A stretch of 64,000 nucleotides of DNA from Sphingobium sp. Z007 (GTDB lineage Bacteria > Pseudomonadota > Alphaproteobacteria > Sphingomonadales > Sphingomonadaceae): assembly GCF_900013425.1 (NCBI RefSeq), contig NZ_FBXK01000001.1, forward strand, positions 1,101,776 to 1,165,775, read 5' to 3'. Below are positions 10,451 to 26,487 of the stretch, piece after piece; positions within the stretch are counted from its first letter, which is position 1, and each line of letters starts with the position of its first letter. Both the position numbers and the translations under genes were made by a program. Below the pieces are notes generated by a model. That model did no database searches and was not told where the DNA came from. It saw only the letters and a list, made by a program, of their open reading frames with translations.

Positions 10451-12756
10451 GCGGGGCGATGATCCGCGATGGCGCGCAATATGCGTTCGGGCGTCGCCGG
10501 CGCATCGAGTGGGGGCAAGGCGCGCTTCTCCGGCGCGACGGCGGCGATCGCATGCGTCAGCGCCGAAAAAACCGAGATCGCCAGCATGAAGGGCGGCTCG
10601 CCCACCGCCTTGGACCGGTTGATCGTCGGCTGCACATTCTCCCCGTCCCACAGCCGGATCGACAGATGGCGCGGCCGGTCCGACGCGGTCGGAATCTTGT
10701 AGGTGGCGGGCGAATGGGTCAGCAGACGGCCCTTGTCGTCCCACACCAGTTCCTCGGTGGTGAGCCAGCCCTGGCCTTGCAGGAAGCCGCCCTCGATCTG
10801 GCCGATGTCGATGATTGGGTTCAGCGATGTGCCAACATCATGCAGGATATCGACCGCCAGCACCCGATGCTCGCCGGTCAGCGTGTCGATCGCCACCTCC
10901 GTCACCGCCGCGCCATAGGCGAAATAATAGAAGGGCCGACCTTTGTGCGCGGCCCGATCATAGGCGATGTCGGGCGTGGCGTAATAGCCGGTCGAGGAGA
11001 GCGAGACGCGCCCGATATGCGCCTTGCGGCAAAGGTCGCCGAAGCTCACCCGCTCCGTGCCGATCCGCACCGCACCGTCCGAGAAACGCACGGCTTCCTC
11101 TCCGCAACCAAAGCTGCGCGCGGCAAAGGCAGTCAGCCGGTCCCGGATCGTCATTGCGGCGTTGTAGGCCGCCATGCCATTCAAATCCGCGCCCGATGAC
11201 GCCGCCGTCGCGGATGTATTGGGCACCTTGTCCGTCCGCGTCGCGGTGATCCGCACTTGCCCCACCGGCACGGCGAACACATCGGCCACCACCTGCGCCA
11301 CCTTGATATAGAGACCCTGCCCCATCTCGGTGCCGCCATGATTGATCTGGATGCTGCCGTCGGCATAGACATGGACCAGCGCGCCGGCCTGATTGAGGTG
11401 GGTAGTGGTGAAGCTGATGCCGAACTTGACCGGGCTCAGCGCGATCCCTTTCTTCAGCACCGGACTCTGCGCATTGAAGGCAGCGATCGCCTGCCGCCGC
11501 GCGTCGTAGCGGGCATCGGCACGCAACCGGGCGATCAACTGCGGCGCGATATTGTCCGTGACCTGCATGGCATAGGGGGTGACGTCACGGCCGGGGCCAT
11601 AGAGGTTGGCGATCCGCACATCGAGCGGATCGATCCCCAGATGCGCGGCGACATCATCCATGACCCTTTCGATCGCGAGCATCCCCTGCGGCCCGCCGAA
11701 CCCGCGAAAGGCGGTGGCGGAAACCGTGTGCGTCTTCAGCCGCTCCGACAAAATCTCGATCGCGGGCAGATGATAGCAATTGTCGGCATGGAACATCGCC
11801 CGGTCGTTGATCGCGGGCGACAGATCCACGGTCGCGCCGCAGCGCGAGGCGAGCCCCAGCTTGAGCGCGAGTATGTGTCCCGCAGCGTCGAAACCCACTT
11901 CATAATCTACCCGAAAATCATGCCGCTTGCCGGTCATCACCATGTCGTCGTCGCGGTCGCAACGGAATTTGGCGGGGCGACCGGTCTTGTCCGCGACCAG
12001 GGCGGCGGCGGCGGCGAAAAGGGCGGCCTGAGTCTCCTTGCCCCCGAACGCGCCGCCCATCCGCCGCACCTCGACCGTCACGTCGGCGGAACGGCGACAG
12101 AGCATATGGGCGACCAGATGCTGCACTTCGCTGGGATGCTGGGTGGAGGACAGGACATGCATCTGCCCATCCTCACCCGGCGTCGCGATCGCGACCTGCC
12201 CCTCCAGATAGAAATGGTCCTGCCCGCCCATGTCGAAACCGCCCGTCAGGCGATGCGGGGCGTCGGCCAATGCAGCGGCGGCGTCGCCCCGCGCCATGCG
12301 CTGGGTCGGCTCGATCAGCGACGCGGCAGCGCGGGCGTCGGCGATGGTCAGATGGGCAGGCAAGGGTTCGTATGCGATCTCGCCCAGTCGGGCCGCCTGC
12401 CGCGCGGCGCGCTGGCTGGTGGCGGCGACCAGGAAGATGGGCTGGCCGACGCAGAGCACTTCGCCGTCGGCTAGCAGCCGATCGTCGCCCGCGACCGGGC
12501 TGACGTCGTTCGCACCGGGAATATCGGCTGCGGTATAGACAGCGACCACGCCGGGCGCGGCGCGCACCGCGGAGAGGTCCATCGCCATGATGCGCGCATG
12601 TGCCTCGCGGCTCTGGCCGAAGGCGAGATGTAGCATGGCGGCCGGTTCGGGCAGGTCGTCGGCATAGTGGGCACGACCGCTGACATGCAGCGCCGCGCTG
12701 TCATGCGGGTTGGAGGGTTTCGCCTGCGCCACCAAGCCGGGATCGCGCTCAGCCAT
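10447..12756 (-). CDS. xdhB: Xanthine dehydrogenase molybdenum-binding subunit
   Basis: A 769-residue large subunit that oxidises hypoxanthine and xanthine to urate at the Mo-pterin site. Visible cofactor and active-site motifs are YLEGQVA, GGAFGGKE, RGFGGPQGM, SSGADLNGMAAYNA and the C-terminal GEPPFMLA with the catalytic glutamate. The start at 12756 (MAERDPG) overlaps the xdhA stop by eight bases, and further upstream in-frame codons encode a non-conserved stretch. The length fits bacterial two-subunit XDH, where FeS/FAD and Mo domains are on separate chains. Confidence 0.94.
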   Translation of the reverse strand: MAERDPGLVAQAKPSNPHDSAALHVSGRAHYADDLPEPAAMLHLAFGQSREAHARIMAMDLSAVRAAPGVVAVYTAADIPGANDVSPVAGDDRLLADGEVLCVGQPIFLVAATSQRAARQAARLGEIAYEPLPAHLTIADARAAASLIEPTQRMARGDAAAALADAPHRLTGGFDMGGQDHFYLEGQVAIATPGEDGQMHVLSSTQHPSEVQHLVAHMLCRRSADVTVEVRRMGGAFGGKETQAALFAAAAALVADKTGRPAKFRCDRDDDMVMTGKRHDFRVDYEVGFDAAGHILALKLGLASRCGATVDLSPAINDRAMFHADNCYHLPAIEILSERLKTHTVSATAFRGFGGPQGMLAIERVMDDVAAHLGIDPLDVRIANLYGPGRDVTPYAMQVTDNIAPQLIARLRADARYDARRQAIAAFNAQSPVLKKGIALSPVKFGISFTTTHLNQAGALVHVYADGSIQINHGGTEMGQGLYIKVAQVVADVFAVPVGQVRITATRTDKVPNTSATAASSGADLNGMAAYNAAMTIRDRLTAFAARSFGCGEEAVRFSDGAVRIGTERVSFGDLCRKAHIGRVSLSSTGYYATPDIAYDRAAHKGRPFYYFAYGAAVTEVAIDTLTGEHRVLAVDILHDVGTSLNPIIDIGQIEGGFLQGQGWLTTEELVWDDKGRLLTHSPATYKIPTASDRPRHLSIRLWDGENVQPTINRSKAVGEPPFMLAISVFSALTHAIAAVAPEKRALPPLDAPATPERILRAIADHRPA

Positions 12757-14179
12757 GCTCGGCCTCCAGCGCCAGCAACGATACCGGCGCGCCGGACTCC
12801 CGGTGCCACAATCGCCAAAGCAGGCTGGCCGCCGCCTCAACCCGATAGACGGCGCTGCCGCGCACATCGCTCAATGGGCTGTAATCCTGGCGCAGCGCAA
12901 CGACGGCAGCGGCAATCGTCGCTTGCGTGAAAGACTGGCCCGTTAGCGCGCCTTCGCAAGCCGGTGCCCGGCGCGGCGTCGCCGCCATGCCGCCAAAGGC
13001 GACCCGCGCCTCCACGATCCGCTCGCCATCCATCCGTAGCCGGATCGCCCCGCACACCGCCGAAATATCGCTGTCGAACCGGCGGGACAATTTGCCGATC
13101 AGGATGATGTCGGTCGGGGCGGGGCGCGGCACGTGGATGCTTTCGACAAACTCGAACGGCCGCCGGTCCTGTTGCCCATAGGCCAGGAAATACTCCTCCA
13201 GCGCCATCGTCCGCCGCCCCATGGCGCTCCGCAGGGTCATCGACGCGCCCAGCGCGATCAGTGCGGGCGGCCCGTCGCCGATGGGCGATCCGTTGGCGAT
13301 ATTGCCGCCCACGGTTGCGGCGTTGCGCACCTGCAATCCGCCGATCCGTCGCACCAGTTCGCCCAGGTCCGGGTGCAACCGCGCGAACGCGGCATGGGCG
13401 TCGGCATAGCGCACCCCCGCGCCGATCGTCAGGCCATCCGGTCCTTCATTGATCGCCTGTAATTCCGCAATGTCACCGATGAAGATCAATGTCTCCAGCG
13501 TCTCCAGCCCCTTCGTCACCCACAGGCCGACATCTGTCGCCCCCGCCACCAGCCGGGCGTCGGGATGGGCGGCCAGCAGGTCGGCCAGCGCCTGCGTGGT
13601 GCGGGGGATGAACCAGCGCCGCGCACCATCGCCGCCCGCGACGGTCTGGTCCGATGCGATTCCCCGCAACGCGGCGACCGTGCCCGCATCGTCCTGAGGC
13701 AACGTCGGCACGCTTTCCGCCGCGTCCAATATCGGCCCATAGCCGGTGCAGCGGCACAAATTGCCCGCCAGCACGTCCGCCACCGGCAACGCATCGCCGC
13801 GCGCGCCGATGCACCGGCCATGCAGCGACATGACGAAACCGGGCGTGCAGAAGCCGCATTGCGAACTGCCGTTCGCCGCCATGCACGCCTGCAACCGGGT
13901 GAGCGCATCGTCCTTGCCCAGGCTCTCGACCGTCAGCAGCGCCTTGCCATGCAGCATCGGCAGGAAGAGGATGCAACTGTTGACCGCCCGCCACGCGATG
14001 CCGTCGCGATCCAGTTCGCCCACCAGTACGGTGCAGGCGCCGCAATCGCCCTCGGCGCAGCCCTCCTTCGTGCCCGTCCGGCCCAGGCGATAGCGCAGAT
14101 GGTCGAGCAGGGTGGCGGTGGGATCGACCTGCGCGATCTCCACCACGCCGCCGTCCAGCAGAAAGCGCACGCCGCTCAT
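12749..14179 (-). CDS. xdhA: Xanthine dehydrogenase small subunit, [2Fe-2S] and FAD domains
   Basis: A 476-residue subunit with an N-terminal plant-type ferredoxin domain (CAEGDCGACTV), a second [2Fe-2S] domain (QCGFCTPGF and LCRCTGYGPI), then an FAD-binding domain with LVAGATDVGL and NAATVGGNIANGSPIGD. It passes electrons from the Mo centre in XdhB to FAD and NAD+. The start at 14179 (MSGVRFLLDG) lies one base after the hiuH stop. The gene precedes xdhB and xdhC in the usual A-B-C order. Confidence 0.94.
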   Translation of the reverse strand: MSGVRFLLDGGVVEIAQVDPTATLLDHLRYRLGRTGTKEGCAEGDCGACTVLVGELDRDGIAWRAVNSCILFLPMLHGKALLTVESLGKDDALTRLQACMAANGSSQCGFCTPGFVMSLHGRCIGARGDALPVADVLAGNLCRCTGYGPILDAAESVPTLPQDDAGTVAALRGIASDQTVAGGDGARRWFIPRTTQALADLLAAHPDARLVAGATDVGLWVTKGLETLETLIFIGDIAELQAINEGPDGLTIGAGVRYADAHAAFARLHPDLGELVRRIGGLQVRNAATVGGNIANGSPIGDGPPALIALGASMTLRSAMGRRTMALEEYFLAYGQQDRRPFEFVESIHVPRPAPTDIILIGKLSRRFDSDISAVCGAIRLRMDGERIVEARVAFGGMAATPRRAPACEGALTGQSFTQATIAAAVVALRQDYSPLSDVRGSAVYRVEAAASLLWRLWHRESGAPVSLLALEAEHG

Positions 14180-14180
14180 C

Positions 14181-14510
14181 TCAACTCCCCCGATAGGTCG
14201 AATAGCCATAGGGCGAAACCAGCAACGGCACATGATAATGGCCATCGTCCGAGACACCGAAATGGACAGTTATAACGTCAAGAAAAGGCGGGTCAGCCAG
14301 CACGGTTCCGCGCGCCCGATAATAGGCCGCGACCGCGAATGTCAGCTGGTAGCAGCCGGGATCGATCGGGGGCAGGCCGGGGCAGCGCCCGTCCGCATTG
14401 GTGGCGCCTGCGAACAATAGCGCGCCGTCCTGCGACAGCAATTGGATCGCCACTCCGTCGGCCGGGCAGCCATGGGCGGTGTCGAGGACATGGGTGGACA
14501 GGATAGTCAT
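14181..14510 (-). CDS. hiuH: 5-hydroxyisourate hydrolase
   Basis: A 109-residue transthyretin-like protein that hydrolyses 5-hydroxyisourate to OHCU. It starts MTILSTHVLDTAHG, the usual opening with the active-site histidine, and ends with the diagnostic YRGS. HYHVPLLVSPYGYSTYRGS is a clear family C-terminus. The ATG at 14510 overlaps the hpyO stop by four bases, and homologues confirm that start. It works between the urate hydroxylase and OHCU decarboxylase encoded next to it. It is probably cytosolic. Confidence 0.94.
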   Translation of the reverse strand: MTILSTHVLDTAHGCPADGVAIQLLSQDGALLFAGATNADGRCPGLPPIDPGCYQLTFAVAAYYRARGTVLADPPFLDVITVHFGVSDDGHYHVPLLVSPYGYSTYRGS

Positions 14511-15925
14511 TCGGCCGCCTCCTGGCGCGGCCATTGGCCGATAAATTCCGCTTCATCATAGGCGATCAGGTCGGCGACCAGCGCGTCCTTATCGTCCAGG
14601 AACAGCTGGTCGGTAACGCCGCGGACCAGCCGGGGCAGGGCGGTCTGCAACCCCGACAGGGCCGAGGCGGACAGGCCCAGGCTGATGAGCGCCGAATAGT
14701 TGAAGGCGAACACGCCGTGCAGCGCTGCCTCGCCCGCCGCGTCGCGCGGCAGCAGTTGGAAGCCGGGGCCCAGATAGGGATGCGCGTCGATCAGCGCGTT
14801 GCGCTCGCCCGGCGGCGGGGTGAAGCGATCGGCCCAGCGCGCGATATGCGGCGCCAGCCCCGCCAGTTCGGGACGGAGGCCTGGATCGCTAATAAGCCCC
14901 GTCGATAGGACCGCGAAATCGAACATCTGTTCGCGCTGCGGCGTGGTCACGCAGACCTGTCCATCTTCTTGTCGCACATCCAGCCATGGCGCGCCCAGAT
15001 GCAGCGCGAAACCGGGCCAGGCCGCCGCGCGATCGAAGGTGTCGTTGGTGGGCGGCTGGTTATGGCCAAGGAAGCTCGCCATCACCCGATATTTGGTCGC
15101 ATCATCCAATGCGGGATAGCGGCCGGTGAAGCCGACCCTTTCCATGAAGCGAATGGGATTGATCCGCGGCAAGCTCTTGCGCCGGATGAAAACATGCGCT
15201 TCCGCGACGCCCAGGCGCATCGCCGCGTGGGCATTGTCGAACGCGGACGCGCCGCCGCCCAATATGCCGATTCGCTTGCCCGCCAGCGCGGCATAATCGA
15301 TCGGCTCGCTGGTATGAGCGTAGAGATGGCGGGGCAGGGCCTCGCGGATCATCGCGGGGGTATGCCATTGCCCGCCGCCCTGGATGCCGGTCGCGAGCAC
15401 CACCTTGCGCGCCAGCAATGGCGCTTGCCTGTCCAGATGCAACCGGTGCAGCCCGTCTCCGACCGGCTCGATCAGCGTCAACCGCGTATCATTACGCACC
15501 GGCAGCGCCAGCACCCGGCGATACCAGCGCAGATAGGCCATCCAGTCGCCGCGCGCGATCTTGTCGACAGCCTCCCAGCCAGCCGCGCCATGCTGCGCCT
15601 CCCACCAGGCGCGATAGGTGAGCGCGGGCACCCCGAAATCGATCGGGTTCAGCATCTTGGGCGTGCGCAGCGTAATCATCCGCGCATAGCTGTCCCATGG
15701 TCCCTCCAGACCCGCCGGGCTTTCGTCGATGACCAGGATATTGGACACGCGCTCGCGCATCAGGCCGAAGGCCGCGGCAAGCCCGCTCTGCCCGCCGCCC
15801 ACGATCGCCACATCGTACACATGCCCATCAGGATGAGCGCGCGGGCGCGTCCAGTCCGCGCCGCCGAAACCGATCAGCGTCAATTGGCGGGCGAGGTCCG
15901 CTTCCAGGGCGGGCAGGCCGATCAT
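14507..15925 (-). CDS. hpyO: FAD-dependent urate hydroxylase, HpyO type
   Basis: A 472-residue flavin monooxygenase-like protein with two Rossmann folds: VYDVAIVGGGQSGLAAAFGL (near residues 37-56) for FAD and GKRIGILGGGASAFDNA for NAD(P)H. It has no similarity to cofactor-free uricase or to HpxO, and no other urate-oxidising candidate is encoded. The HpyO family is an established non-homologous urate hydroxylase giving 5-hydroxyisourate. Position between uraD and hiuH, with ATGA overlaps on both sides, fits exactly. An ornithine-monooxygenase-like activity is the alternative on family grounds but does not fit the context. Confidence 0.85.
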   Translation of the reverse strand: MIGLPALEADLARQLTLIGFGGADWTRPRAHPDGHVYDVAIVGGGQSGLAAAFGLMRERVSNILVIDESPAGLEGPWDSYARMITLRTPKMLNPIDFGVPALTYRAWWEAQHGAAGWEAVDKIARGDWMAYLRWYRRVLALPVRNDTRLTLIEPVGDGLHRLHLDRQAPLLARKVVLATGIQGGGQWHTPAMIREALPRHLYAHTSEPIDYAALAGKRIGILGGGASAFDNAHAAMRLGVAEAHVFIRRKSLPRINPIRFMERVGFTGRYPALDDATKYRVMASFLGHNQPPTNDTFDRAAAWPGFALHLGAPWLDVRQEDGQVCVTTPQREQMFDFAVLSTGLISDPGLRPELAGLAPHIARWADRFTPPPGERNALIDAHPYLGPGFQLLPRDAAGEAALHGVFAFNYSALISLGLSASALSGLQTALPRLVRGVTDQLFLDDKDALVADLIAYDEAEFIGQWPRQEAAE

Positions 15926-16377
15926 GCCTCCATATCCTTCAGCCGCAGGCGCACGATCTCGCCGATCTGGGCGATGGCGGTCGCAATCTCCTCGCCCCGC
16001 TCGTGGGCGAGACGCTGTTCCATGGCCGCCAATATCCCCGCCTTGTCGGTCAGCCGCACGCAGATGATGAAGGGAAAACCGAAGCGCTCCTGATAGGCGG
16101 CGTTGAGCGCATGGAAGCGCGCATATTCTTGTGGAGTCAGCCGATCTAGCCCGGCCGATGCCTGTTCCGCTGCCGATGCGTCTGTCAATGTCCGGTCGAT
16201 CACCGCCTTGCCCGCCAGTTCGGGATGGGCGCGGATCAGGGCCAGTTGCTCCTCGCCGCTGGCGCTGCGGACCACCGCCATCAGGTCCGCCCAGCGGTCC
16301 CCACACGACGGGCGCGCGTCTGCCCGCGCCTCGATCCAGGGGCTATGTTCGAAAAAGGCTTGCGTGGGACCAGTCAA
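15922..16377 (-). CDS. uraD: OHCU decarboxylase
   Basis: A 151-residue 2-oxo-4-hydroxy-4-carboxy-5-ureidoimidazoline decarboxylase that yields S-allantoin. Family motifs FFEHSPWIEARA, IRAHPELAGKA and ERFGFPFIICVR are present. The start is TTG at 16377: it overlaps the hpxZ stop as TTGA, and GGAAGG stands nine bases upstream. No ATG gives a better protein. It is slightly shorter than typical members (about 160-170 residues), missing the first few non-catalytic residues. Confidence 0.92.
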   Translation of the reverse strand: MTGPTQAFFEHSPWIEARADARPSCGDRWADLMAVVRSASGEEQLALIRAHPELAGKAVIDRTLTDASAAEQASAGLDRLTPQEYARFHALNAAYQERFGFPFIICVRLTDKAGILAAMEQRLAHERGEEIATAIAQIGEIVRLRLKDMEA

Positions 16378-16754
16378 TGTGTGCTGCCTTCCAGCGAGAC
16401 ATGCGCCGATACGACTTTCCAGCCATCGGCGAACTTGACCCAGCTTTGCGTCTGGCGTCCGCGCCGGTCGCTATTCTCGCGGAAAAATTCGGCGTCGGCG
16501 GTGGCGAAGGCGTCGCCATAGACGGTGATCGAGACCTTCCCCAGTTTGCGCTGCGGCGATCCGCCGCGCCCCTTGCGAAATGCCCGTATCTCCTCGATGC
16601 CGTAAAGCACCTCGCCCACGCCATAGCGATTGGTCGTCGGCGCATCGTGGAACAGCGCCTCCATGGCGGGCACGTCGTCGGCCATCAGCGCCCGCTCATA
16701 GGCGACGAAGGCGGCGGTGATTTCGGCGAGCAGTACGGGATCGTCTATCGTCAT
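16374..16754 (-). CDS. hpxZ: HpxZ/AtzH-like NTF2-fold protein of oxalurate catabolism
   Basis: A 126-residue protein of the AtzH-like family (SnoaL/NTF2 fold). Motifs are FVAYERALMADDVPAMEALF, RYGVGEVLYG and the tail GWKVVSAHVSLEG. In the Klebsiella hpx locus, HpxZ accompanies HpxW, HpxX and HpxY in converting oxalurate to oxalate. All three partners have counterparts in this operon, including an HpxX-like tail fused to a transporter. Its exact biochemical role is not settled. It is ATGA-coupled to puuE upstream. Confidence 0.85.
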   Translation of the reverse strand: MTIDDPVLLAEITAAFVAYERALMADDVPAMEALFHDAPTTNRYGVGEVLYGIEEIRAFRKGRGGSPQRKLGKVSITVYGDAFATADAEFFRENSDRRGRQTQSWVKFADGWKVVSAHVSLEGSTH

Positions 16755-17626
16755 AGCGGGTGAACCTCCATCCAGTGGCGGGCGATGTCGATGCGGCGCG
16801 CGACCCAGGCGTCGCCGGACGCAACGACATGATCGAGGAAACGGGCAAGCGCGCGGGCGCGAGCGGGGCGCCCCGCGATGCGGCCATGCAGGCCGACCGA
16901 CATCATCCGCCCGCCTTCCTCCCGCAACTGGTCGAACGTGTCGCGCAGATAGCGGAAAAACTGCTCGCCCTCGGTAAAGCCGTTATAGGCGACCATCTTC
17001 ATGTCGTTGGCGTCGAGCGTGTAGGGGACGATCAACTGCCCGCGATCATAATAGGGCAGGTCGTCGGCATAGCTGTCCGCATCATAGACGAAACCGCCTT
17101 CCTCCCGCACCAGCCGGGCGGTGTTGGGCGACGTGCGGCCCTGATACCAACCCAAGGGGCGGCTGCCGGTCAGGCTGCTGTGCAGCGCGATCGCTTGGGT
17201 AATATGCGCGCGCTCGACGTCTTCGGGCACGGTTTGATAGTCGATCCATTTCAGGCCGTGGCTGGCGATTTCCCAGTCCGCCGCCAGCATCGCGGCGACC
17301 GCTTGCGGGTTCATCGCCATCGCCTGCGCCACGCCAAAGACCGTGACGGGCAGGGCGCGCTGCGTGAAGATGCGGTGCAGCCGCCAGAAACCGGCGCGGC
17401 TGCCATATTCATACAGGCTTTCCATCGCCATCGCCCGGTCGTCATGGCTCTGCGCGCCGACCATTTCGGACAGGAAGGCTTCGGACCCCTTGTCGCCGTT
17501 GAGGACGCTATTTTCCGCCCCTTCCTCATAATTGATGACGAACTGCACCGCGACTTTCGCACCGCCGGGCCAGCACGGATCGGGAGGGGAGGCGCCATAG
17601 CCGATGAGGTCGCGGGGCGGGGTCAC
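16751..17626 (-). CDS. puuE: Allantoinase, polysaccharide deacetylase-like
   Basis: A 291-residue PuuE-type allantoinase that opens allantoin to allantoate. It belongs to the polysaccharide-deacetylase fold and is unrelated to the metal amidohydrolase AllB. Characteristic blocks are RDLIGYG near the N-terminus, FVINYEEGAENSVLNGD, and EIASHGLKWIDYQ. The GTG at 17626 is chosen because it overlaps the pucG stop as GTGA, like the other junctions here. A second GTG at 17635 would add only three residues. Confidence 0.92.
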   Translation of the reverse strand: MTPPRDLIGYGASPPDPCWPGGAKVAVQFVINYEEGAENSVLNGDKGSEAFLSEMVGAQSHDDRAMAMESLYEYGSRAGFWRLHRIFTQRALPVTVFGVAQAMAMNPQAVAAMLAADWEIASHGLKWIDYQTVPEDVERAHITQAIALHSSLTGSRPLGWYQGRTSPNTARLVREEGGFVYDADSYADDLPYYDRGQLIVPYTLDANDMKMVAYNGFTEGEQFFRYLRDTFDQLREEGGRMMSVGLHGRIAGRPARARALARFLDHVVASGDAWVARRIDIARHWMEVHPL

Positions 17627-18861
17627 GCGTCCCACGCCGCCATCGCTGCATTGACAGCCTCACCGGCGGGGAGCGTAAATCCCTCCCGCCGCAGGCACGC
17701 CTCCAGCGCACCCAGCGTGCTCAGCACCTTATGCTGCATCGCATTATAACCCATCGCGCCGATCCGCCAGATCCGGCCCTGGAGCGGACCGAAGGCGGTG
17801 CCGATCTCGATCTCGAACGCATTGCGCATCATCGTGCGGACGCGTTCGCCGTCGACGCCCTGCGGGATGAAAACGCCCGTCACATTGGTCATGCGATGCG
17901 CGTCGTCGCCAAAGACGGTCAGCCCCATGGCGCGCAGCCCGGCGGTCATCGCGCGCCCGGCGGCTTCGTGGCGGGCGTAGCTGGCCTCCAGCCCTTCGCC
18001 CAGCATGATCCGCGCACATTCGCGCGCGGCGTAGAGCATCGACGTCGCTTCGGTATGATGATTGAGGCGCTTGTCGCTCCAATAATCCATAATCATGGCG
18101 AGGTCGAAATAGTTGGAGCCGATGCGCGGCCCCGCGCCGTCGCTGATGTCGTCGCGGCGGATGCCGGCTTCGACCCGCTTGCGGCCCTGGATCAGCGCCG
18201 CCGCCTGATCGGAGATGGTGATCGGCGCCGATCCCGATGGCCCGCCCAGGCATTTCTGCAAGCCGCCGGTGACGATGTCCGCGCCCCAGCGATCGGCGGC
18301 GATGGCCATGCCGCCGATCGTCGCAGTCGCATCGACATAGAGCAGCGCCCCCGCCGCCGCGCACAGCGCGCCCAGGCCGTCGAGCGGTTGCGCCATGGTG
18401 GTGGAGGTATCGCCATGGATGGTGGCGACCACCTTGGGCTGCACCCGTTCGATCCCAGCAGCGATGGCGTCCATCGGCACGACTTCGCCCCAGGTCGCCT
18501 CCACCGTTTCGACCCGCGCGCCGATGCGGCCCAATATTTCCGTGAGCAGCAGGCCGAAGCGACCGAAATTGACCACCAGCACGGTGTCGCCCGGCGCGAC
18601 CAGGCTGACCAGCGCCGCTTCGATCCCCGCCCGCGCGGTGCCATCGACCAGCATCGTCCACTGGTTCTGCGTGCCGAAGATCGGGCGATACAGCGCCATG
18701 ACCTGGTTCATATAGCCGGTCATTTCCGGGTCGAACTGGCCCAGCAGATCGGCGGACATGGCGCGCAGCACGCGGGGGTGGGCATTGACCGGCCCCGGCC
18801 CCATCAGCAGCCGCTGGGGCGGGTCGATCTCGCCGAATAAGTTCGGATCAAGCGGCAGCAA
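17623..18861 (-). CDS. pucG: (S)-ureidoglycine-glyoxylate aminotransferase
   Basis: A 412-residue class V PLP aminotransferase. It opens with the LLMGPGPVNAHPRVL pattern of alanine-glyoxylate aminotransferase relatives, and the PLP lysine lies in TGGLQKCLGGPSGSAP, as in PucG rather than AGT or serine-glyoxylate enzymes. It transaminates ureidoglycine with glyoxylate to oxalurate and glycine, which explains why an oxalurate/oxamate branch is in the same operon. The start is TTG at 18861, with GGGAG six bases upstream, overlapping allC by 14 bases. Confidence 0.9.
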   Translation of the reverse strand: MLPLDPNLFGEIDPPQRLLMGPGPVNAHPRVLRAMSADLLGQFDPEMTGYMNQVMALYRPIFGTQNQWTMLVDGTARAGIEAALVSLVAPGDTVLVVNFGRFGLLLTEILGRIGARVETVEATWGEVVPMDAIAAGIERVQPKVVATIHGDTSTTMAQPLDGLGALCAAAGALLYVDATATIGGMAIAADRWGADIVTGGLQKCLGGPSGSAPITISDQAAALIQGRKRVEAGIRRDDISDGAGPRIGSNYFDLAMIMDYWSDKRLNHHTEATSMLYAARECARIMLGEGLEASYARHEAAGRAMTAGLRAMGLTVFGDDAHRMTNVTGVFIPQGVDGERVRTMMRNAFEIEIGTAFGPLQGRIWRIGAMGYNAMQHKVLSTLGALEACLRREGFTLPAGEAVNAAMAAWDA

Positions 18862-20083
18862 TGAACTCTCCCAATCTCTCTATGAAGCCCAGCATAGCTT
18901 GCAATGCCGCTTCCGCATCGGCGGGATCGACATGTTCGGCCGGATGATGGCTGATCCCATGCCTGCACCGGATGAACAGCATGGCGGTCGGGCACAGCGC
19001 CGCCATCACCATCGCGTCATGACCCGCGCCGGATACGAGGCGGAAGGCGGACTGTCCGGTCTCGGCGATGGCGGCATCCATCAGTTTCATCAGTCGGGGA
19101 TCGCACGGGCTTGCGGGCAGGTCGTGGATCAGCGTCGTCGCCAAATCCAGCTCGCGCCGATCGGCGATCGCAGTGATCGCATCGATCATCGCCTCCGCCG
19201 CTTGGTTACGCCTGCCCTCTTCGCCGGACCGGACATCCAGCGTGAAGCGCACTTCGCCGGGGATGACATTGGCCGCGCCCGGCAGCGCCTCGATCCGCCC
19301 CACCGTGGCGACGAGGTCGGAGGCATCGTTGCGCGCGAGTCCCTCGATCGCCAGCATCGCCTCCGCCGCGCCTGCCAGCGCGTCGCGGCGCAAGGGCATC
19401 GACGTCGTGCCGGCATGGCCCGCCATCCCCCGCAGCGTCAGTTGATAGCGCAGTTGCGCGGCGATGCCGGTGACGGTGCCAAGCGCCAGCCCCTGCGCCT
19501 CCAGCACCGGCCCTTGTTCGATATGCGCTTCAAGATAGGCGAGGGTGGTGCGGGGCGCGCGCGCGGCGGAGAGATAGGCGCCGACATCGACACCGGCATC
19601 CGCCAATGCAATGCCGTCGCCATCGCTCAGCCATAGCGCCTCAGCCGCGAGCGTACCCGCTACCGCCCGGCTGGTCAGCATAGCGGCGGGAAAGCGCGAT
19701 CCTTCCTCGTCGCCAAAGGCGATCACCTCTATCGGGAAGCGCAGGCGTCGCCCGGCGCGATGCAGCGCCGCGACCGCCTCCACGCCCAGCATGATGCCCA
19801 GAAGCCCGTCATAGCGACCCGCATCTTTCACGCTGTCGAGATGGCTGCCGATCAGCAGCGCGGGCGCGGCCGGGTCCAGCCCTTCATAGCGGCCGATCAG
19901 GTTGGCAGCCGGGTCGCGCCGCGCAGCCATCCCGGCCTCTCCCATCCACCCCGCCAGCGCATCCTGTGCATGAACATAGGCCGGCGTCAGATAGCCGCGA
20001 TACAGGCCGTCCGCCATGTCGCTATAGGGCGCGACGCCCAACGCATCGCAGCGCGCCACCGCTCTTGCCCCGCCGCTCACCAT
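18848..20083 (-). CDS. allC: Allantoate amidohydrolase
   Basis: A 411-residue M20-family metallohydrolase giving ureidoglycine, CO2 and ammonia from allantoate. Metal-site motifs are GSHLDSV, FGDEEGSRF and EAHIEQGPVLE, followed by VSGAGHDAM and RCRHGISHHPAEHV. The same family includes N-carbamoyl-L-amino-acid and beta-ureidopropionate hydrolases, so the name depends partly on its place between puuE/pucG and hpxW. ATG at 20083 overlaps hpxW by seven bases. A GTG three bases inside is an equally coupled alternative. Confidence 0.9.
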   Translation of the reverse strand: MVSGGARAVARCDALGVAPYSDMADGLYRGYLTPAYVHAQDALAGWMGEAGMAARRDPAANLIGRYEGLDPAAPALLIGSHLDSVKDAGRYDGLLGIMLGVEAVAALHRAGRRLRFPIEVIAFGDEEGSRFPAAMLTSRAVAGTLAAEALWLSDGDGIALADAGVDVGAYLSAARAPRTTLAYLEAHIEQGPVLEAQGLALGTVTGIAAQLRYQLTLRGMAGHAGTTSMPLRRDALAGAAEAMLAIEGLARNDASDLVATVGRIEALPGAANVIPGEVRFTLDVRSGEEGRRNQAAEAMIDAITAIADRRELDLATTLIHDLPASPCDPRLMKLMDAAIAETGQSAFRLVSGAGHDAMVMAALCPTAMLFIRCRHGISHHPAEHVDPADAEAALQAMLGFIERLGEFIAAA

Positions 20084-21654
20084 GTCGCCACCGCGCCGTC
20101 GCTGCGCGGGTCTGTCGCGCCGTCCAGCCGCCCATCACTATGGCGCACGATCGCGCCGGCATGGCCCATAGTGCCGGTCGGCGGCCCCACCCGCTCGACA
20201 TCGTGACCAGCGGCGATCAGGTCGACATAAAGGCGCTCGTCGAACCCGTCCTCCAGCTTCAAGGTCGTGCTCTGGTCGCCCCAGGTCCGCCCCAACAACC
20301 ATCGCGGTCGGCTGATCGCCTCCTGCAAGTCCACACCATAGCGGGCGTAGCGCGTGAATAAGGCCGCCTGCGTCTGCGGCTGACCCTCGCCGCCCATCGT
20401 GCCATAGGCCATGACCCGCCCGTCAGCGAAACATGCGAGCGCGGGATTGAGCGTATGGAACGGCTTACGGCCGGGCTTGAGCGCATTCCAGCCGCTCTGC
20501 GCCAATCGGAAGCTGCTGCCGCGATTCTGCCAGGTGATGCCGGTGCGCGGCAGCACCAGGCCCGATCCGAACTCGAAATAGGTGGACTGGATGCAGGATA
20601 CGACGCGCCCGTCGCCATCGGCCGCCGCGAACCAGCAGGTGTCGCCCCATTGCGGCGGCTGCGGCCAGGGCAGGGCGCGGGCCGGATCGATCTTCGCCGC
20701 CAGCATCTCCAGCGCGGCGGGATCGTCCAGCAATCCCTGCCAGTCATAATCATGAAAGGCGGGATCGCCGACATGCATGTCGCGGATCAGGAAGGCCTGT
20801 TTGGTCGCTTCGACCAGCCCATGGACATGGTCGAACCCATCGGCGCTCCCAGCGCGCAGCCGGTCGAAAAGGGCGAGGATCAGCAGCGAGGCGAAACCCT
20901 GCGTGGGCGGCGCGCTGTTGTAGAGGGTCGCGCCACCGATCCCGACATGCAGCGGATCGGGGCGGGTCGCCTGATGCGCGGCCAGATCGGCGGCGGAAAC
21001 GGGGCTGCCCAGCGCGGCCAGATCGGCGGCGATGTCGGCCGCCAGCGCGCCGCTGTAAAAGCTCGCCAATCCCTCGTCCGCCAGCCGTTGCAGCGTGTCG
21101 GCTAATAGGGGCTGGCACAGCAGATCGCCCGCGCGCAGGGGTCGGCCTTCGGGTTCGAAGGTCGCCATATAGGCGCCGGGTTGTCCGCGCAACTCTTCGC
21201 CCTTGGCCGCCGCGATCTCCGCGCCGCCCGCCGTGACGGCCACGCCCGCCCGTGCATGGCCAATCGCATCGCGCAGCAGGCGATCGAGCGGCAACGTGCC
21301 GCCTTCCAGCGCCGCCGCCCAGCCCGAAACCGTGCCTGCCACCGTATTCGCTGCCAGCGGCCCGCGCGTCGGCACCGCTTCATGTCCCGCATAAAGCGAC
21401 AGGTCCGCCTTGGCCGCCGCGCCGCCGCAGCCATGGATGCCATGCACGCGCCCGTCTGACTCTCGAATGACCCAGAACCCATCGCCGCCGATGCCGGTCA
21501 TATGCGGATAGACCGCCGCCAGCGTCGCCGCCACCGCGACGCACGCCTCCACCGCGTTGCCGCCATCGCGCAGCACGCTGAGGCCCGCCGCGCTCGCCAA
21601 ATGATGCGGCGCGGTCACCATGCCGTGTCGGCCTGAGACGGTGGCCAGCGCCAT
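20077..21654 (-). CDS. hpxW: Oxamate amidohydrolase proenzyme, gamma-glutamyltransferase family
   Basis: A 525-residue Ntn-hydrolase related to gamma-glutamyltransferase. Self-cleavage is expected before Thr339 in QWGDTCWF, the HpxW-type nucleophile motif. Later blocks include GITWQNRGSSF, FHTLNPALACF and MGGEGQPQTQ. There is no signal peptide, unlike periplasmic glutathione-processing GGTs, and the context is purine catabolism. HpxW cleaves oxamate to oxalate and ammonia, the last step of the oxalurate branch. The stop and start codons of the neighbouring genes share one base (TGATG). Confidence 0.85.
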   Translation of the reverse strand: MALATVSGRHGMVTAPHHLASAAGLSVLRDGGNAVEACVAVAATLAAVYPHMTGIGGDGFWVIRESDGRVHGIHGCGGAAAKADLSLYAGHEAVPTRGPLAANTVAGTVSGWAAALEGGTLPLDRLLRDAIGHARAGVAVTAGGAEIAAAKGEELRGQPGAYMATFEPEGRPLRAGDLLCQPLLADTLQRLADEGLASFYSGALAADIAADLAALGSPVSAADLAAHQATRPDPLHVGIGGATLYNSAPPTQGFASLLILALFDRLRAGSADGFDHVHGLVEATKQAFLIRDMHVGDPAFHDYDWQGLLDDPAALEMLAAKIDPARALPWPQPPQWGDTCWFAAADGDGRVVSCIQSTYFEFGSGLVLPRTGITWQNRGSSFRLAQSGWNALKPGRKPFHTLNPALACFADGRVMAYGTMGGEGQPQTQAALFTRYARYGVDLQEAISRPRWLLGRTWGDQSTTLKLEDGFDERLYVDLIAAGHDVERVGPPTGTMGHAGAIVRHSDGRLDGATDPRSDGAVATW

Positions 21655-22568
21655 CAGTCAGGCAGCGCCGCGACGAAGGCGCGCACGACATGGGCGCTGT
21701 TGACCGACGCCAAGGCCATGAAGGCGACCATCTGATTCTCGCCCGCATCGCCGCCGGCCAGGTCCGACAGGCTGCGGAAGACGATGACCGGCACGCCATT
21801 GGCATAGGCGACCTGCGCGACCGCCGCGCTTTCCATGTCCAGCACCCGCGCCTTCCACGCGCTGGCCAGATAATCGCGAAACTCGGCATTGTCGGCGAAT
21901 ACGCCGGCGCTGACACCAGTCCCGCCGACCACGATCTTGGGATCATGCGGCAGGCAGGCGGACGCTGCGCCCTGGCCCTGGATGCAGCGTTCCAGCTTCA
22001 CGTCGCCCGCCACTTTCTGCGCCAGTTGCAGCAGGGCGGGATCGACGCCGAAACTATAGTGACGCTTTACCGCCTCGCGCGCATTGCCAACGCGCACCCC
22101 GCGCGGGAACATCATGCCCCAATTGGCCGGCGCGTTGGCGTCCACCGCTTCGGGGACGGTCCATCCGTCGCCATTTTTGCGGGCGAAGGAGACTTCGAGA
22201 TATTGCGCCCAGTCCTGCGGCACGATGACGTCGCCGATCGACAGGCCGGGATCGACGCCGCCAGCGATGCCGGAAAAGACGATGCGCCGCACGGTGAAGT
22301 GATCCAGCACCAGTTGCGTATTCATCGCAGCGTTCACCATGCTAACGCCGCTCTGCATCAGCAGCACCGGCTTGCCGGCCATCCGGCCGGTCAGGAAGGT
22401 CATGCCGTTGATCTGGTGGCGCTTGGGCCTGTCCACCGACTTCACCAGCGCATCCCATTCGGGCAGGAAGGCGGTCATGACCACGGTGCGCGGCGTGCTG
22501 TCCATTTTGCGCGCGAGGGCTTGAGAGGGAAGGGCAAGCGCCAGCAGCGCGAGGGCGATAAAACGCAT
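21654..22568 (-). CDS. Exported nucleosidase of the PNP/MTAN superfamily
   Basis: A 304-residue nucleoside phosphorylase/nucleosidase-fold protein. A clear signal peptide (MRFIALALLALALPSQALA) sends it to the periplasm. Fold motifs are VFSGIAGGVDPGLSIGDVIVP and, near the end, VLDMESAAVAQVAYANGVPV, whose MESAA glutamate binds ribose in MTAN/PNP enzymes. It probably splits purine nucleosides outside the cytoplasm so that the adjacent AzgA-type permease can import the free base. The exact nucleoside and whether it is hydrolytic or phosphorolytic are not visible. It overlaps azgA by one base. Confidence 0.85.
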   Translation of the reverse strand: MRFIALALLALALPSQALARKMDSTPRTVVMTAFLPEWDALVKSVDRPKRHQINGMTFLTGRMAGKPVLLMQSGVSMVNAAMNTQLVLDHFTVRRIVFSGIAGGVDPGLSIGDVIVPQDWAQYLEVSFARKNGDGWTVPEAVDANAPANWGMMFPRGVRVGNAREAVKRHYSFGVDPALLQLAQKVAGDVKLERCIQGQGAASACLPHDPKIVVGGTGVSAGVFADNAEFRDYLASAWKARVLDMESAAVAQVAYANGVPVIVFRSLSDLAGGDAGENQMVAFMALASVNSAHVVRAFVAALPD

Positions 22569-23935
22569 CAGGCGGCTCCCATCCAGACGAAGCGAATGAC
22601 GAAAAGGCCGGCCAGCAGGAACAGGAACCAGTCTTTGCGGGTGGCCGTCCCGCGCAGCGCCTTGAGCGCCGCATGAGCGGTGATGCCAAAGGCCAGGCCG
22701 TTGGCGATCGAGAAGGTCAGCGGGATCATCGCCACGGTCAGGAAGGCGGGAATCGCCGACATCGGGTCTTCCCACTCAACCTCCGTCAGCGGCACCAGCA
22801 TCAGGCCCCCGACGATGATGAGCGCGGGTGCCGTCGCCGCCAGCGGCACCAGTTGCGCATAGGGGGCAACGAACATCGTCAACAGGAACAGGATGCCGGT
22901 GACGACCGCCGTCAGTCCGGTGCGCCCGCCCGCCTGCACGCCCGCGGCACTTTCGACATAGGAGGTGACGGTGCTGGTCCCCGCCATCGACCCGACGATG
23001 GTGGCGACCGCGTCGGTAATCAATATGCGGTTGAGGCCCGGAATCTTGCCCGCCGCGTCCATTAGCCCGGCGCGCTTGGTCACCGCCACCAGCGTCCCGA
23101 TATTGTCGAACAGATCCACGAACAGGAACACGAACAGGATTTCGAGCAGACCGAGGCCATGGCTGCCGGTCAGCCCGAACACGCCAGGCAGGTCCAGTTG
23201 GAACGCCGTGCCGGTCAGCGCATCCAGACTATAGGGTTCGGGCTTGACCGTCACCATGCCGGTCAGCCAGCCGACGATCGTGGTCGCGACGATGCCGATC
23301 AGCATTGCGCCGCGCACATTCCAGACACTGAGCGTGCCGATCACCAACAGCCCCAGCAACGCCAGCGCCGCGCCGGGGGCTTTGAGGTCGCCCAGCGCCA
23401 CGAAGGTCGCCGGATTGGCACCCACGATCCCGGCATTTTTCAGGCCGATGAAACCGATGAACAGGCCGATGCCGCCCGCCACGGCGGCAAAAAGATAGGT
23501 GGGGATGACCGCCACGATCAATTGCCGCACCCCGGTCAGCGTCAGGATCAGGAACGCGACGCCGGACAGGAAGACGCAGCCCAGCGCGATCGGCCAGGGC
23601 ACGCCCATCTGCCCGACCACGGTAAAGGCGAAATAGGCGTTCAATCCCATGCCCGGCGCCAGCGCCAAAGGCACATTGGCGGTCAGGCCCATCAGGATCG
23701 AAGCAAAGGCAGCCGCAAAGCAGGTGGCTGCCGCTACCGCCGCCACCGGCATCCCGGCCGCGCCCAGGATCGCCGGGTTGACCAGCACGATATAGGCCAT
23801 GGTCAGGAAGGTGGTGACCCCCGCCAAAACCTCCGTCCGCACCGACGTGCCGCGCTGGTTGAGGGCGAAATAGCGGTCCAGCCGGCTTGTCGGCGCTTCT
23901 GGCGGATGGTGATCCGCGACCTGCGATGGCGTCAT
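22568..23935 (-). CDS. AzgA-type purine base permease (NCS2 family)
   Basis: A 455-residue inner-membrane transporter with about 12-14 hydrophobic segments. ALAPGMGLNAYFAFTVV and STVTSYVESAAGVQAGGRTG are signatures of the AzgA/GhxP adenine-guanine-hypoxanthine branch of NCS2, distinct from the xanthine/uracil branch. It should import purine bases by proton symport. It overlaps the amidase gene upstream by ATGA and the exported nucleosidase downstream by one base, which makes a nucleoside-cleaving and base-importing pair. Confidence 0.9.
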   Translation of the reverse strand: MTPSQVADHHPPEAPTSRLDRYFALNQRGTSVRTEVLAGVTTFLTMAYIVLVNPAILGAAGMPVAAVAAATCFAAAFASILMGLTANVPLALAPGMGLNAYFAFTVVGQMGVPWPIALGCVFLSGVAFLILTLTGVRQLIVAVIPTYLFAAVAGGIGLFIGFIGLKNAGIVGANPATFVALGDLKAPGAALALLGLLVIGTLSVWNVRGAMLIGIVATTIVGWLTGMVTVKPEPYSLDALTGTAFQLDLPGVFGLTGSHGLGLLEILFVFLFVDLFDNIGTLVAVTKRAGLMDAAGKIPGLNRILITDAVATIVGSMAGTSTVTSYVESAAGVQAGGRTGLTAVVTGILFLLTMFVAPYAQLVPLAATAPALIIVGGLMLVPLTEVEWEDPMSAIPAFLTVAMIPLTFSIANGLAFGITAHAALKALRGTATRKDWFLFLLAGLFVIRFVWMGAA

Positions 23936-25272
23936 GCGATGTCCCCCGAATGTTGATGTCCCGGCATGGTGACGCCGGTGATGCCCCGTTGCTCCAGCAT
24001 GGCGGCCAGACGGAACAATGTCGGCTCGCTACTTGGCTTGCCGATCAGTTGCAGCCCCAATGGCAGCCGCCCCGGACGATAGAGCGGAACACTGAGCGAA
24101 GGAAAGCCCGTGAAACTGATCGGCTGGGTATGAATGCCCAGGTCCGCGCGCGCCGCCGTCATCGCCCCGTCGATCAGGATGCGGGGATCGTCCACCAGCG
24201 GCGCGGTGCAGGGCGTGGCCGGCGCGATCAGCACGTCATAGGGCGCGATCAGGTCCAGCATCGTGGCGCGGAAGCTGGCGCGGAACGCCTGCGCGTCGTC
24301 ATACAGGCCATCGGGCAACAAGGCCCCGGCGATCAGCCGGTCACGCACCTGCGGATCGAAAGCCATGGCGTCGCGCGCCAGCGCCGCGCGGTGCAGTCGC
24401 CCGCCTTCGCTGGCCGTAATCAGGAAGGCGGCCGACCGCGCGCGGGCGATGTCTGGCACAGTTACGACCGGCGCATCCGGCGCAATGGCGTCTATCGCTG
24501 CGCTCTGATCGGGATCGATGTTCTGCGCAAAGCGGCCGCCCAGCCGCGCAAGGCGGATCGGCGTGTCGTGCGGCTGGGCGGATCGCCCGCTCAGTATTGC
24601 CCAGATCGTCACCATGTCGGCCAGCGACGCGGTGAACGGGCCGATATCGTCAAAACTGTCGGCGAAGGGAAAGACGCCACCCATCGGCAGGTCGCCATGC
24701 GTTGGTTTCAACCCGTAAAGGCCGGTCAGGCTGGCCGGCACCCGGATCGACCCGTTGGTGTCGGACCCCAGCGAAAAGGGCAGAAGGCCGGCCGCGACCG
24801 CCGCCGCCGACCCGCCCGACGACCCGCCCGCCAGCCGGGTCGGGTCATGCGGATTGCGCGTCGTGCCATGCAGCGCGTTGATGGTCGCAAAGCCATAGGC
24901 GAACTCGTCCATGTTGAGGCTCGCCACCAGCACTGCGCCTGCGGCTTTCAGGCGACGGATCGCTTCGGCATCTTCGGCCGCCGGGGGCGCGTCGGCATAA
25001 ACACGCGATCCGGCGGCGGTGGGCAGGCCGGCAATGTCGAACAGATCCTTCACACCAAAGGGCACGCCCGCCAGCGCGCCTGGATCGCGTCCGGCGGCGA
25101 CCAGCGCATCCACCCTCTGCGCATCCTCGCGCGCCGGTCCGGCCAGGATGCGGGTCACGGCGCAAAGCGGCGCATATTCTTTCGCCAGCGTCGCCAGGCA
25201 CTGATCGAGCATATGCGTGGCGGACAGTCGGCCGCTGCGCACGGACTGGGCGATAGCCATGGCTCCCATCAT
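23932..25272 (-). CDS. hpxY: AtzE/HpxY-type amidase
   Basis: A 446-residue amidase-signature enzyme. The Ser-cisSer-Lys triad is visible as Lys75 ([12 protein letters not shown]), the GGSSGGS loop near residue 151, and the nucleophile Ser175 in [11 protein letters not shown]. The sequence follows the AtzE/HpxY group that pairs with a small AtzG/HpxX subunit in s-triazine and hpx loci. Here the AtzG-like segment is the C-terminal tail of the protein encoded just upstream, whose stop overlaps this ATG by ATGA. It probably acts on oxalurate or a related carbamoyl compound. That assignment is inference. Confidence 0.85.
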
Positions 25273-26417
25273 GGCGCGGCGCTTTCATCACGGCTGAGCA
25301 ACAGTCCGGCATGGCGATCGAGCAGCGCCATGTTCGCGACCACGCCGGGCATACAGGCGGCATCGATCGGCAGGCCGATGGCGTCTGCCGCCCGATGAAT
25401 GTCCGCTTCGCTTCGGGGCAGTGGCGGGATGGTCGCCAAAGTCGCCGCCTGCCGCGCGAACCGGGCGGCCAGCGCCGCGCACAGCAGCAGTTGCAGCTGA
25501 TGAAATATCATGAGCGGCAGAATCAGCAGGCCGACCTGCGCGGGCGGGAACAGCGCGCCAGCCATCGGTACGCCGGATACCAGGCTTTTCTTCGATCCGC
25601 AGAACAGCAGCACGATCGCGTCCGGGCGCGGCAATCGGGCAAGCCGCGCAACGCCCATATTGACCCCCATGACGAAGGCCAGGATGAGCATACTCAGGAC
25701 CAACAGTAGCATTAGGTCGCCCACGCCGACCTGAGTCCAAATGCCGCCCGCGACGGCGGCGCTGAAAGCGGCATAGACCACCAACAATATCGCGCCGCGA
25801 TCCACGGGCATCAACAGTCCCTTATGCCGGTCGATGAAGCCGCCGATATAGGGGCGCAGCAGATGGCCCGCGACGAAGGGGATCAGCAGTTGAAGGGCGA
25901 TAGTCTGGACCGAATGGATCGTAGCGGAGCCGCCATGTCCCTCCACATTCAGGGTTAAGGTGACGAGGAGCGGCGTCAGCAGGATGCCGATCAGGTTGGA
26001 CAGCGACGCGCTGCACAGGGCGGCGGCGACATTGCCGCCCGCCATCGCGGTAAAGGCGATCGATGATTGGACGGTGGAGGGCAAAAGAGTCAGATAGAGC
26101 AGCCCCGACATGAGCACCGGATCAGCCCAGCCCCGCATCAGCGACGTCAGCGCGATGCCGACAGCAGGAAACACCATGTAGGTCGAAGCAAAGACCAGCA
26201 AATGCAGCCGCCAATTTCCCGCCCCCTGGAGTATCGCCGCACGTGACAGTTTTGCGCCATGAAGGAAGAACAGCAGCGCGATGGCGATGTCGGCCAGCAT
26301 ATCGACCCAGCCGGCGGCCTGTCCGCTGGCCGGCAATAGCGACGCCACGCCCACAGTCGCGACCAGCCATAGCAGAAAGGGGTCAATTCGCAGGATAGCA
26401 AGGGTCGGGCGCGCCAT
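25269..26417 (-). CDS. SBF-like (bile acid:Na+ symporter family) transporter fused to an AtzG/HpxX-like tail
   Basis: A 382-residue protein in one uninterrupted frame. Residues 1-325 resemble SBF-like transporters (YfeH type), with about ten hydrophobic spans and the motifs LLPSTVQSSIAFTAMAGGN and FCGSKKSLVSG. Residues 335-382 read as an AtzG-like (DUF4089) segment: ADAIGLPID, then PGVVANMALLDRHAGLLL. Such segments normally form a separate subunit of about 65 residues for an AtzE/HpxY amidase, and the next gene encodes that amidase. The tail is slightly short at its end. This is the first gene of the purine operon. The start at 26417 was chosen because the transporter fold begins there. Confidence 0.82.
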   Translation of the reverse strand: MARPTLAILRIDPFLLWLVATVGVASLLPASGQAAGWVDMLADIAIALLFFLHGAKLSRAAILQGAGNWRLHLLVFASTYMVFPAVGIALTSLMRGWADPVLMSGLLYLTLLPSTVQSSIAFTAMAGGNVAAALCSASLSNLIGILLTPLLVTLTLNVEGHGGSATIHSVQTIALQLLIPFVAGHLLRPYIGGFIDRHKGLLMPVDRGAILLVVYAAFSAAVAGGIWTQVGVGDLMLLLVLSMLILAFVMGVNMGVARLARLPRPDAIVLLFCGSKKSLVSGVPMAGALFPPAQVGLLILPLMIFHQLQLLLCAALAARFARQAATLATIPPLPRSEADIHRAADAIGLPIDAACMPGVVANMALLDRHAGLLLSRDESAAP

Positions 26418-26446: not shown

Positions 26447-26487
26447 CGATCCAATAGAATGACTTCAACGGATCGTTGCAAAAAATA
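26447..26487. promoter_or_regulatory. Conserved 41-base element, copy 2 (purine operon operator candidate)
   Basis: This matches 4201-4241 at 31 of 41 positions in the same orientation relative to the downstream minus-strand gene. It contains the near-perfect inverted repeat CAACG-GAT-CGTTG (26466-26478). It lies 30-70 bases upstream of the first gene of the 18-gene operon and within the 225-base divergent region to the MFS gene, where a LysR activator would bind. Confidence 0.65.

Follow-up and report, generated by a model that had tools for sequence, protein, structure and literature searches.

An SBF-like transporter with an AtzG/HpxX-like tail as the probable membrane dock of an AtzE/HpxY amidase in a purine operon of Sphingobium sp. 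Z007

Why would a membrane transporter carry the structural subunit of an amidase as its C-terminal tail? The question is raised by a gene at positions 25269..26417 of a 64,000-nucleotide stretch of the Sphingobium sp. Z007 genome (contig NZ_FBXK01000001.1, positions 1,101,776 to 1,165,775), hereafter the window. All features described here lie on its reverse strand. The gene joins an SBF-like transporter to an AtzG/HpxX-like tail, and the next gene encodes an amidase of the AtzE/HpxY family. Comparison with related loci of soil and water bacteria suggests an answer that we hold to be probable: the amidase, an oxalurate amidohydrolase, would dock on a BASS-fold transporter through the AtzG tail, and the transporter would carry an organic anion.

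The frame runs from 26417 to 25269 without a break and translates into 382 amino acids up to the stop codon, as an earlier note on this DNA had claimed. Residues 12-322 (25452..26384) matched the Pfam family SBF_like (PF13593) with 321.9 bits against a cut-off of 25, and this transporter part was assigned to the BASS fold. A linker (residues 323-336, 25410..25451) follows, whose length and sequence vary between homologues. The AtzG/HpxX tail (residues 325-382, 25272..25445), recognized by profile-profile comparison and, when taken alone, by Pfam PF13318, contains two predicted helices (residues 337-346 and 353-379). Among 121 fusion proteins, G358 and L366 of the tail are invariant and N362 is kept in 119. 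The ratio of nonsynonymous to synonymous substitution rates (dN/dS) was about 0.22 in the transporter part, which is thus under purifying selection, and about 0.69, as a rough estimate, over residues 323-338, which include the linker. Of 7996 scored homologues, the best 120 all have the tail, and 25 distinct fused coding sequences were collected, so a sequencing artefact, which the earlier note had named as a danger, was ruled out. Relatives with separate genes do exist (G179, G234 and G405), but these are other genomes and no sign of an artefact. In precomputed Pfam annotation, 6 of these 120 homologues carry both domains.

The transporter part has a GSKKS motif at residues 274-278 (25584-25598), in the second broken-helix region, where ASBT has the glutamate and glutamine of its sodium site. 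Judged from this motif, sodium coupling in the SBF-like family may not be as in ASBT. The same genome also encodes a second, tail-less SBF paralogue (G000:C5:477097-478074) with 57% identity; no purine-cluster gene lies within about 8 kb of it.

Is the tail really an AtzG subunit, as had been proposed? The PF13318 AtzG-like profile matched residues 325-382 alone with 26.1 bits (E 1.1e-5), above the cut-off of 24, over positions 2-35 only of its 50. When 12 free AtzGs that do not belong to the AtzE clade described below were compared by hhalign with the tails of the 121 fusion proteins, the result was 99.1% (E 1.9e-18), and 20 column-shuffled controls reached at most 6.4%. GatC chains were among those whose fold matched the tail best. 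On these results the identification stands. Several others weigh against it. On the whole fusion protein PF13318 scored 22.0 bits, just below its cut-off. In the fold-match list (VIA) the unrelated chain 9ynu_E scored 4.5, equal to the GatC rows, and every Foldseek match of the tail had an E of 2.9 or more. A 24-row AtzG profile run against solved chains gave 31 weak matches, mostly ferredoxins, and missed the AtzG chain. The EPAPVFRP-like C-terminal stretch of other AtzGs, which in our own reading of the alignment may mark the family, is absent from the tails, and likewise from the free AtzGs of the clade and its near sphingomonad relatives. A phmmer search of the fusion against solved chains matched none, and the tail alone gave one chance match only.

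The AtzG hidden Markov model used for the locus surveys was built from these tails and the 12 free AtzGs, and is therefore no independent test of the tails. A search of a protein database with the tail residues returned nine proteins, all SBF-like; since only close relatives can be reached in this way, AtzG may also be fused to other proteins. Apparent cases of another kind occur in Stenotrophomonas, Xanthomonas and Pseudoxanthomonas (loci L167, L170, L173, L183, L202 and L204), where the AtzE frame carries an apparent N-terminal AtzG-like segment with a GIxRNxxLL-like motif, that is, AtzG apparently fused to the amidase itself. Of the three run against Pfam, two scored 14.9 and 18.7 bits with AtzG-like (cut-off 24) and the third gave no match. 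At L148 an AtzG match lies at the end of an open frame of 382 aa, but what precedes it looks like spurious reading, and this does not appear to be a second fusion.

The amidase gene (23932..25272) overlaps the fusion gene in an ATGA, its start codon lying inside the fusion's stop codon. Its product exceeded the cut-off of the AtzE-family model NF006631 (538 bits, cut-off 461), and its closest solved chain is 6c62_A, listed as a biuret hydrolase and taken by us to be AtzE. The pairing predicted by the earlier note was consistent across relatives. AtzE lay directly downstream in all 18 tail-bearing genomes found among 94 of the genus and was adjacent in all five found in a sample of 397 of the family; combined, the surveys hold 21 distinct tail-bearing genomes, each with AtzE downstream. 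Likewise, no free-standing AtzG turned up in the genome of strain Z007, where PF13318 matched the fusion tail only, and so did a wider AtzG profile at E 0.01 (150 of 169 first-look candidates scored). Over the 21 genomes that profile found the fused copy in all and no further match at E 0.01 in 17; the other four (G192, G214, G232 and G421) have a second AtzG, each time beside a second AtzE. G408 appears to be the single case in which tail and AtzE are both missing: its tail-less SBF is nested within the tail clade, and the best AtzE match of the genome is just 35% identical.

In a sample of 149 family genomes SBF was far commoner than AtzE (97 genomes at E 1e-40, against 8 with an AtzE match under 1e-100), which raised the question whether the tail serves something other than AtzE. 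This was rejected, since the widespread SBF is tail-less. Several SBF alignments that pass residue 340 through stop codons were also inspected, and 13 such or nearly such loci yielded no AtzG; three positive controls were found.

How did the fusion arise? In a 51-row AtzE tree, one clade of 44 members (100/100) comprises 28 fused loci, 14 free ones that keep AtzG-AtzE without the transporter stretch, and 2 in which transporter and AtzG are separate genes; the starred branches of the tree require at least five changes of the fused state. A GTDB-wide scan by AtzE alignment gave at least 80 loci, of which at least nine were fused. The records of these nine are titled Sphingobium, Novosphingobium, Sphingomonas or uncultured Sphingomonadales, with one titled Actinobacteria bacterium that falls within the same AtzE clade. 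SBF trees united the tail-bearing and separate forms in one clade with a support of 98, or 99 in another tree, where the clade also takes in the tail-less G408. Within this clade the two separate forms were nested with weaker support (84 and 77). In G405, from the neighbouring group, SBF, AtzG and AtzE are separate genes, the first two overlapping in an ATGA, an arrangement from which only a small change would give the fusion.

A conserved 36-nt leader precedes the operon (26447..26482). It contains the inverted repeat CGATCC...GGATCG and is a candidate for a specific operator or promoter of the operon. With up to 2 mismatches allowed in 15, the leader, TTTGCAACGATCCGT...TTGGATCG, was seen in 37 of the 41 clade loci, namely 23 of the 25 fused loci, 12 of the 14 free ones and both separate ones; elsewhere in the Z007 genome no copy was found, the search giving a single match at up to 3 mismatches. 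The distance from leader to start codon is 64-67 nt as printed in 22 of the 25 fused loci; in the remaining three an ATG in frame lies at 64-65. The recurrence of this spacing in most relatives speaks for the ATG at 26417 as the start. The same 64-67 nt was seen in 8 of the 14 free loci (five as printed, three via an in-frame ATG), and in the remaining six the start is later or not resolved. In most loci, then, the transporter stretch fills the space from a fixed leader to AtzG.

The simplest reading of these comparisons is one fusion of ATGA-coupled separate genes, followed by several in-frame losses of the transporter with AtzG-AtzE kept. Change counts alone cannot tell gain from loss, and we infer loss. 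Remnants of the transporter's first helix were sought at the N-termini of free AtzGs, first in L140 (Novosphingobium Leaf2) and L133. None of eight candidates was convincing against 200 shuffles each, of which the following numbers reached the score: 40 for L140, 116 for L133, 26 for G213, 10 for G199, 8 for L118, 72 for L137, 42 for L143 and 105 for L146. The case for loss therefore rests on the leader, the start distance and the trees.

The genes that follow the amidase point to its substrate. They encode an NCS2-type purine/xanthine permease (22568..23935, PF00860), a PNP_UDP_1 phosphorylase/nucleosidase-like protein (21654..22775, PF01048; its true start is probably near 22580) and an HpxW-like member of the gamma-glutamyltransferase family (20077..21654, PF01019), a candidate oxamate amidohydrolase. 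The closest solved chain of the latter is 5hft, which we take to be Klebsiella HpxW; the oxalurate genes of Klebsiella are hpxWXYZ. Next come an allantoate amidohydrolase (18848..20083; NF006775, 576 bits, cut-off 479), a relative of ureidoglycine-glyoxylate aminotransferases (17623..18861; closest solved chains 3nnk with 511 bits and PucG 3isl with 425 bits), the allantoinase PuuE (16751..17635; TIGR03212, 497 bits, cut-off 424.6) and an OHCU decarboxylase (15922..16377; TIGR03164, 170 bits, cut-off 96.25). Beside the last lies a flavoprotein gene (14507..16306; NAD_binding_9, Pyr_redox_3), also found in several related purine clusters, whose product is possibly responsible for urate oxidation. 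The small and large subunits of xanthine dehydrogenase (10447..14257; TIGR02963 and TIGR02965, over their cut-offs), the accessory protein XdhC (9530..10744; PF13478, PF02625) and an amidohydrolase (8253..9533; PF01979), which from its context would be a guanine deaminase, complete the set. Among the GTDB clade loci, the gene order after AtzE was constant across the available flanks, apart from a few loci that lack the NCS2 or phosphorylase gene; the SBF stretch is present in some and absent in others.

As annotated, this gene set fits a route from purines through oxalurate and oxamate to oxalate. For this reason oxalurate is the likely substrate and its hydrolysis the likely reaction of the amidase, in agreement with the oxalurate-like compound suggested earlier. 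The suggested coupling of hydrolysis to uptake fared less well. Oxalurate would arise in the cytosol through the 3nnk-like aminotransferase, and AtzG-AtzE persists in relatives that lack the transporter stretch. With an operon able to supply oxalurate from within, hydrolysis linked to uptake is one possible reading, and there is at least one other.

In the arrangement that we favour, the fusion would be a BASS-fold transporter with a structural AtzG/HpxX subunit as its C-terminal tail, and the tail would lie on the cytosolic side of the membrane. AtzE/HpxY would assemble on it at the inner membrane face and hydrolyse oxalurate there, and the transporter would move an organic anion of the same purine pathway. 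Because AtzE would assemble on the transporter's own AtzG tail, an oxalurate amidohydrolase would be held on a membrane transporter. The distribution of the transporter argues against an obligatory coupling. Of the 44 clade members, 14 keep AtzG-AtzE but lack the transporter stretch, and 2 have it as a separate gene, so the physical link to transport is not obligatory. Outside the clade 21 AtzE loci were assessed, 8 of them from the survey of the genus, 12 from those of the family and one being the second copy of G421; 13 had no SBF gene in the cluster and one (G214) was uncertain. Thresholds varied, in draft genomes an SBF gene may lie on another contig, and G262, G375 and G280 were not included. 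In the GTDB scan none of the 71 non-fused loci showed an SBF within the available flanks, which extended up to 6 kb.

The alternative that survives best, possible though we do not prefer it, is that ATGA-coupled neighbours were joined by chance: the tethered AtzG would work as usual, transport and hydrolysis would not be coupled, and only stoichiometry or location would be fixed. The precursor-like gene pair of G405, the two genomes with separate genes, the 14 members without the transporter stretch and the repeated changes of state all suit it. Such an accident sits less easily with the retention of the fused state in 28 of the 44 members across wide divergence, with the purifying selection on the transporter part, and with the tail-less SBF genes in the same cluster as AtzE at seven of the 21 loci outside the clade (G405, G021, G153, G155, G192, G232 and G094), where there is no fusion at all. 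In G153, G155, G192, G232 and G094 the SBF gene is more than 6 kb from AtzE. When 15 tail-less SBF loci were viewed for context, 14 had no cluster gene nearby. In the remaining one (L254, genome G377), the SBF gene is followed directly by an NCS2 purine permease, and that genome has no AtzE-like match at 1e-30.

Export is a somewhat less probable explanation, in which the transporter would release the oxalate or oxamate end product, or surplus oxalurate, with the docked amidase at the exit. Oxalurate would be made internally, as noted above, and the product of the HpxW-like enzyme would be oxalate. Oxalyl-CoA decarboxylase, the one oxalate-using route searched for, exceeded the cut-off of TIGR03254 in none of the 94 genus genomes, with six weaker matches at 1e-60. 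Oxalate is therefore perhaps a dead end, and efflux of an end product becomes as reasonable as uptake. Against it, BASS relatives are mostly described as importers, and HpxY would produce oxamate rather than oxalate, so that docking at an oxalate exporter has no obvious use.

It is improbable that the amidase regulates the transporter, its binding to the tail sensing substrate and gating transport, in the way that SbtB regulates SbtA; SbtA-SbtB complexes were among the fold matches of the model and give a precedent for a cytosolic partner on a related fold, but the parallel is an analogy only. Just as hard to credit is a free AtzG released by internal initiation or proteolysis, with AtzE soluble and the fusion serving co-expression only: the window does have a TTG at residue 327 behind a 5-of-6 Shine-Dalgarno-like stretch, but this codon is not conserved, and internal initiation found no support as a general rule. 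Nor is any other internal start codon conserved; in 10 of the 25 fused genes reference residues 312-346 contain no in-frame ATG, GTG or TTG, so the partner subunit of AtzE is probably made only as part of the membrane protein.

The docked arrangement could be carried one step further. Transporter and HpxXY might make up a single complex in the membrane, in which oxalurate or its product is handed on between transport path and active site; the capture of a non-catalytic subunit would then have brought an enzyme to a secondary transporter. We regard this extension, taken as a whole, as tentative and somewhat unlikely.

Each component has known relatives. With AtzEG/HpxXY (PDB 6c62) the system shares the AtzG motif, an AtzE-family amidase as the next gene and perhaps the helix hairpin of the tail; here, however, AtzG forms the C-terminus of a membrane transporter, without the EPAPVFRP-like stretch. 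The GatC chains among the tail's fold matches point to GatCA of the GatCAB transamidosomes, whereas here a membrane tether is predicted and no tRNA role is expected. Compared with ASBT_NM and other BASS-fold transporters and with SBF_like proteins (DUF4137, SLC10A7-like), the fusion adds the AtzG tail. The bicarbonate transporter complex SbtA-SbtB likewise pairs a related fold with a cytosolic partner, but SbtB is a separate PII-like regulator and here an enzyme subunit is fused to the transporter. The studied AtzE is reported to require AtzG for solubility, and enterics to carry ggt-atzG-atzE-atzH clusters (PMC6219798). These clusters and the Klebsiella hpx genes likewise bring HpxW-like, HpxY and HpxX functions together, but here HpxX is fused to a transporter and the gene order differs. 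Our search of the open-licence PubMed Central literature, subscription papers being outside its scope, found no description of a transporter/AtzG fusion. The component families are known; what the literature searched did not show is a transporter whose tail is the subunit of an enzyme complex.

A transporter that covalently carries a subunit on which an enzyme depends would offer a clean test of metabolic channelling, and nature has supplied the material, since fused, separate and transporter-less versions of one operon occur behind the same leader in related strains. Because some SBF genes also sit in purine clusters without fusion, the fusion may provide a handle on the possible cargo of bacterial SBF-like (SLC10A7-type) transporters.
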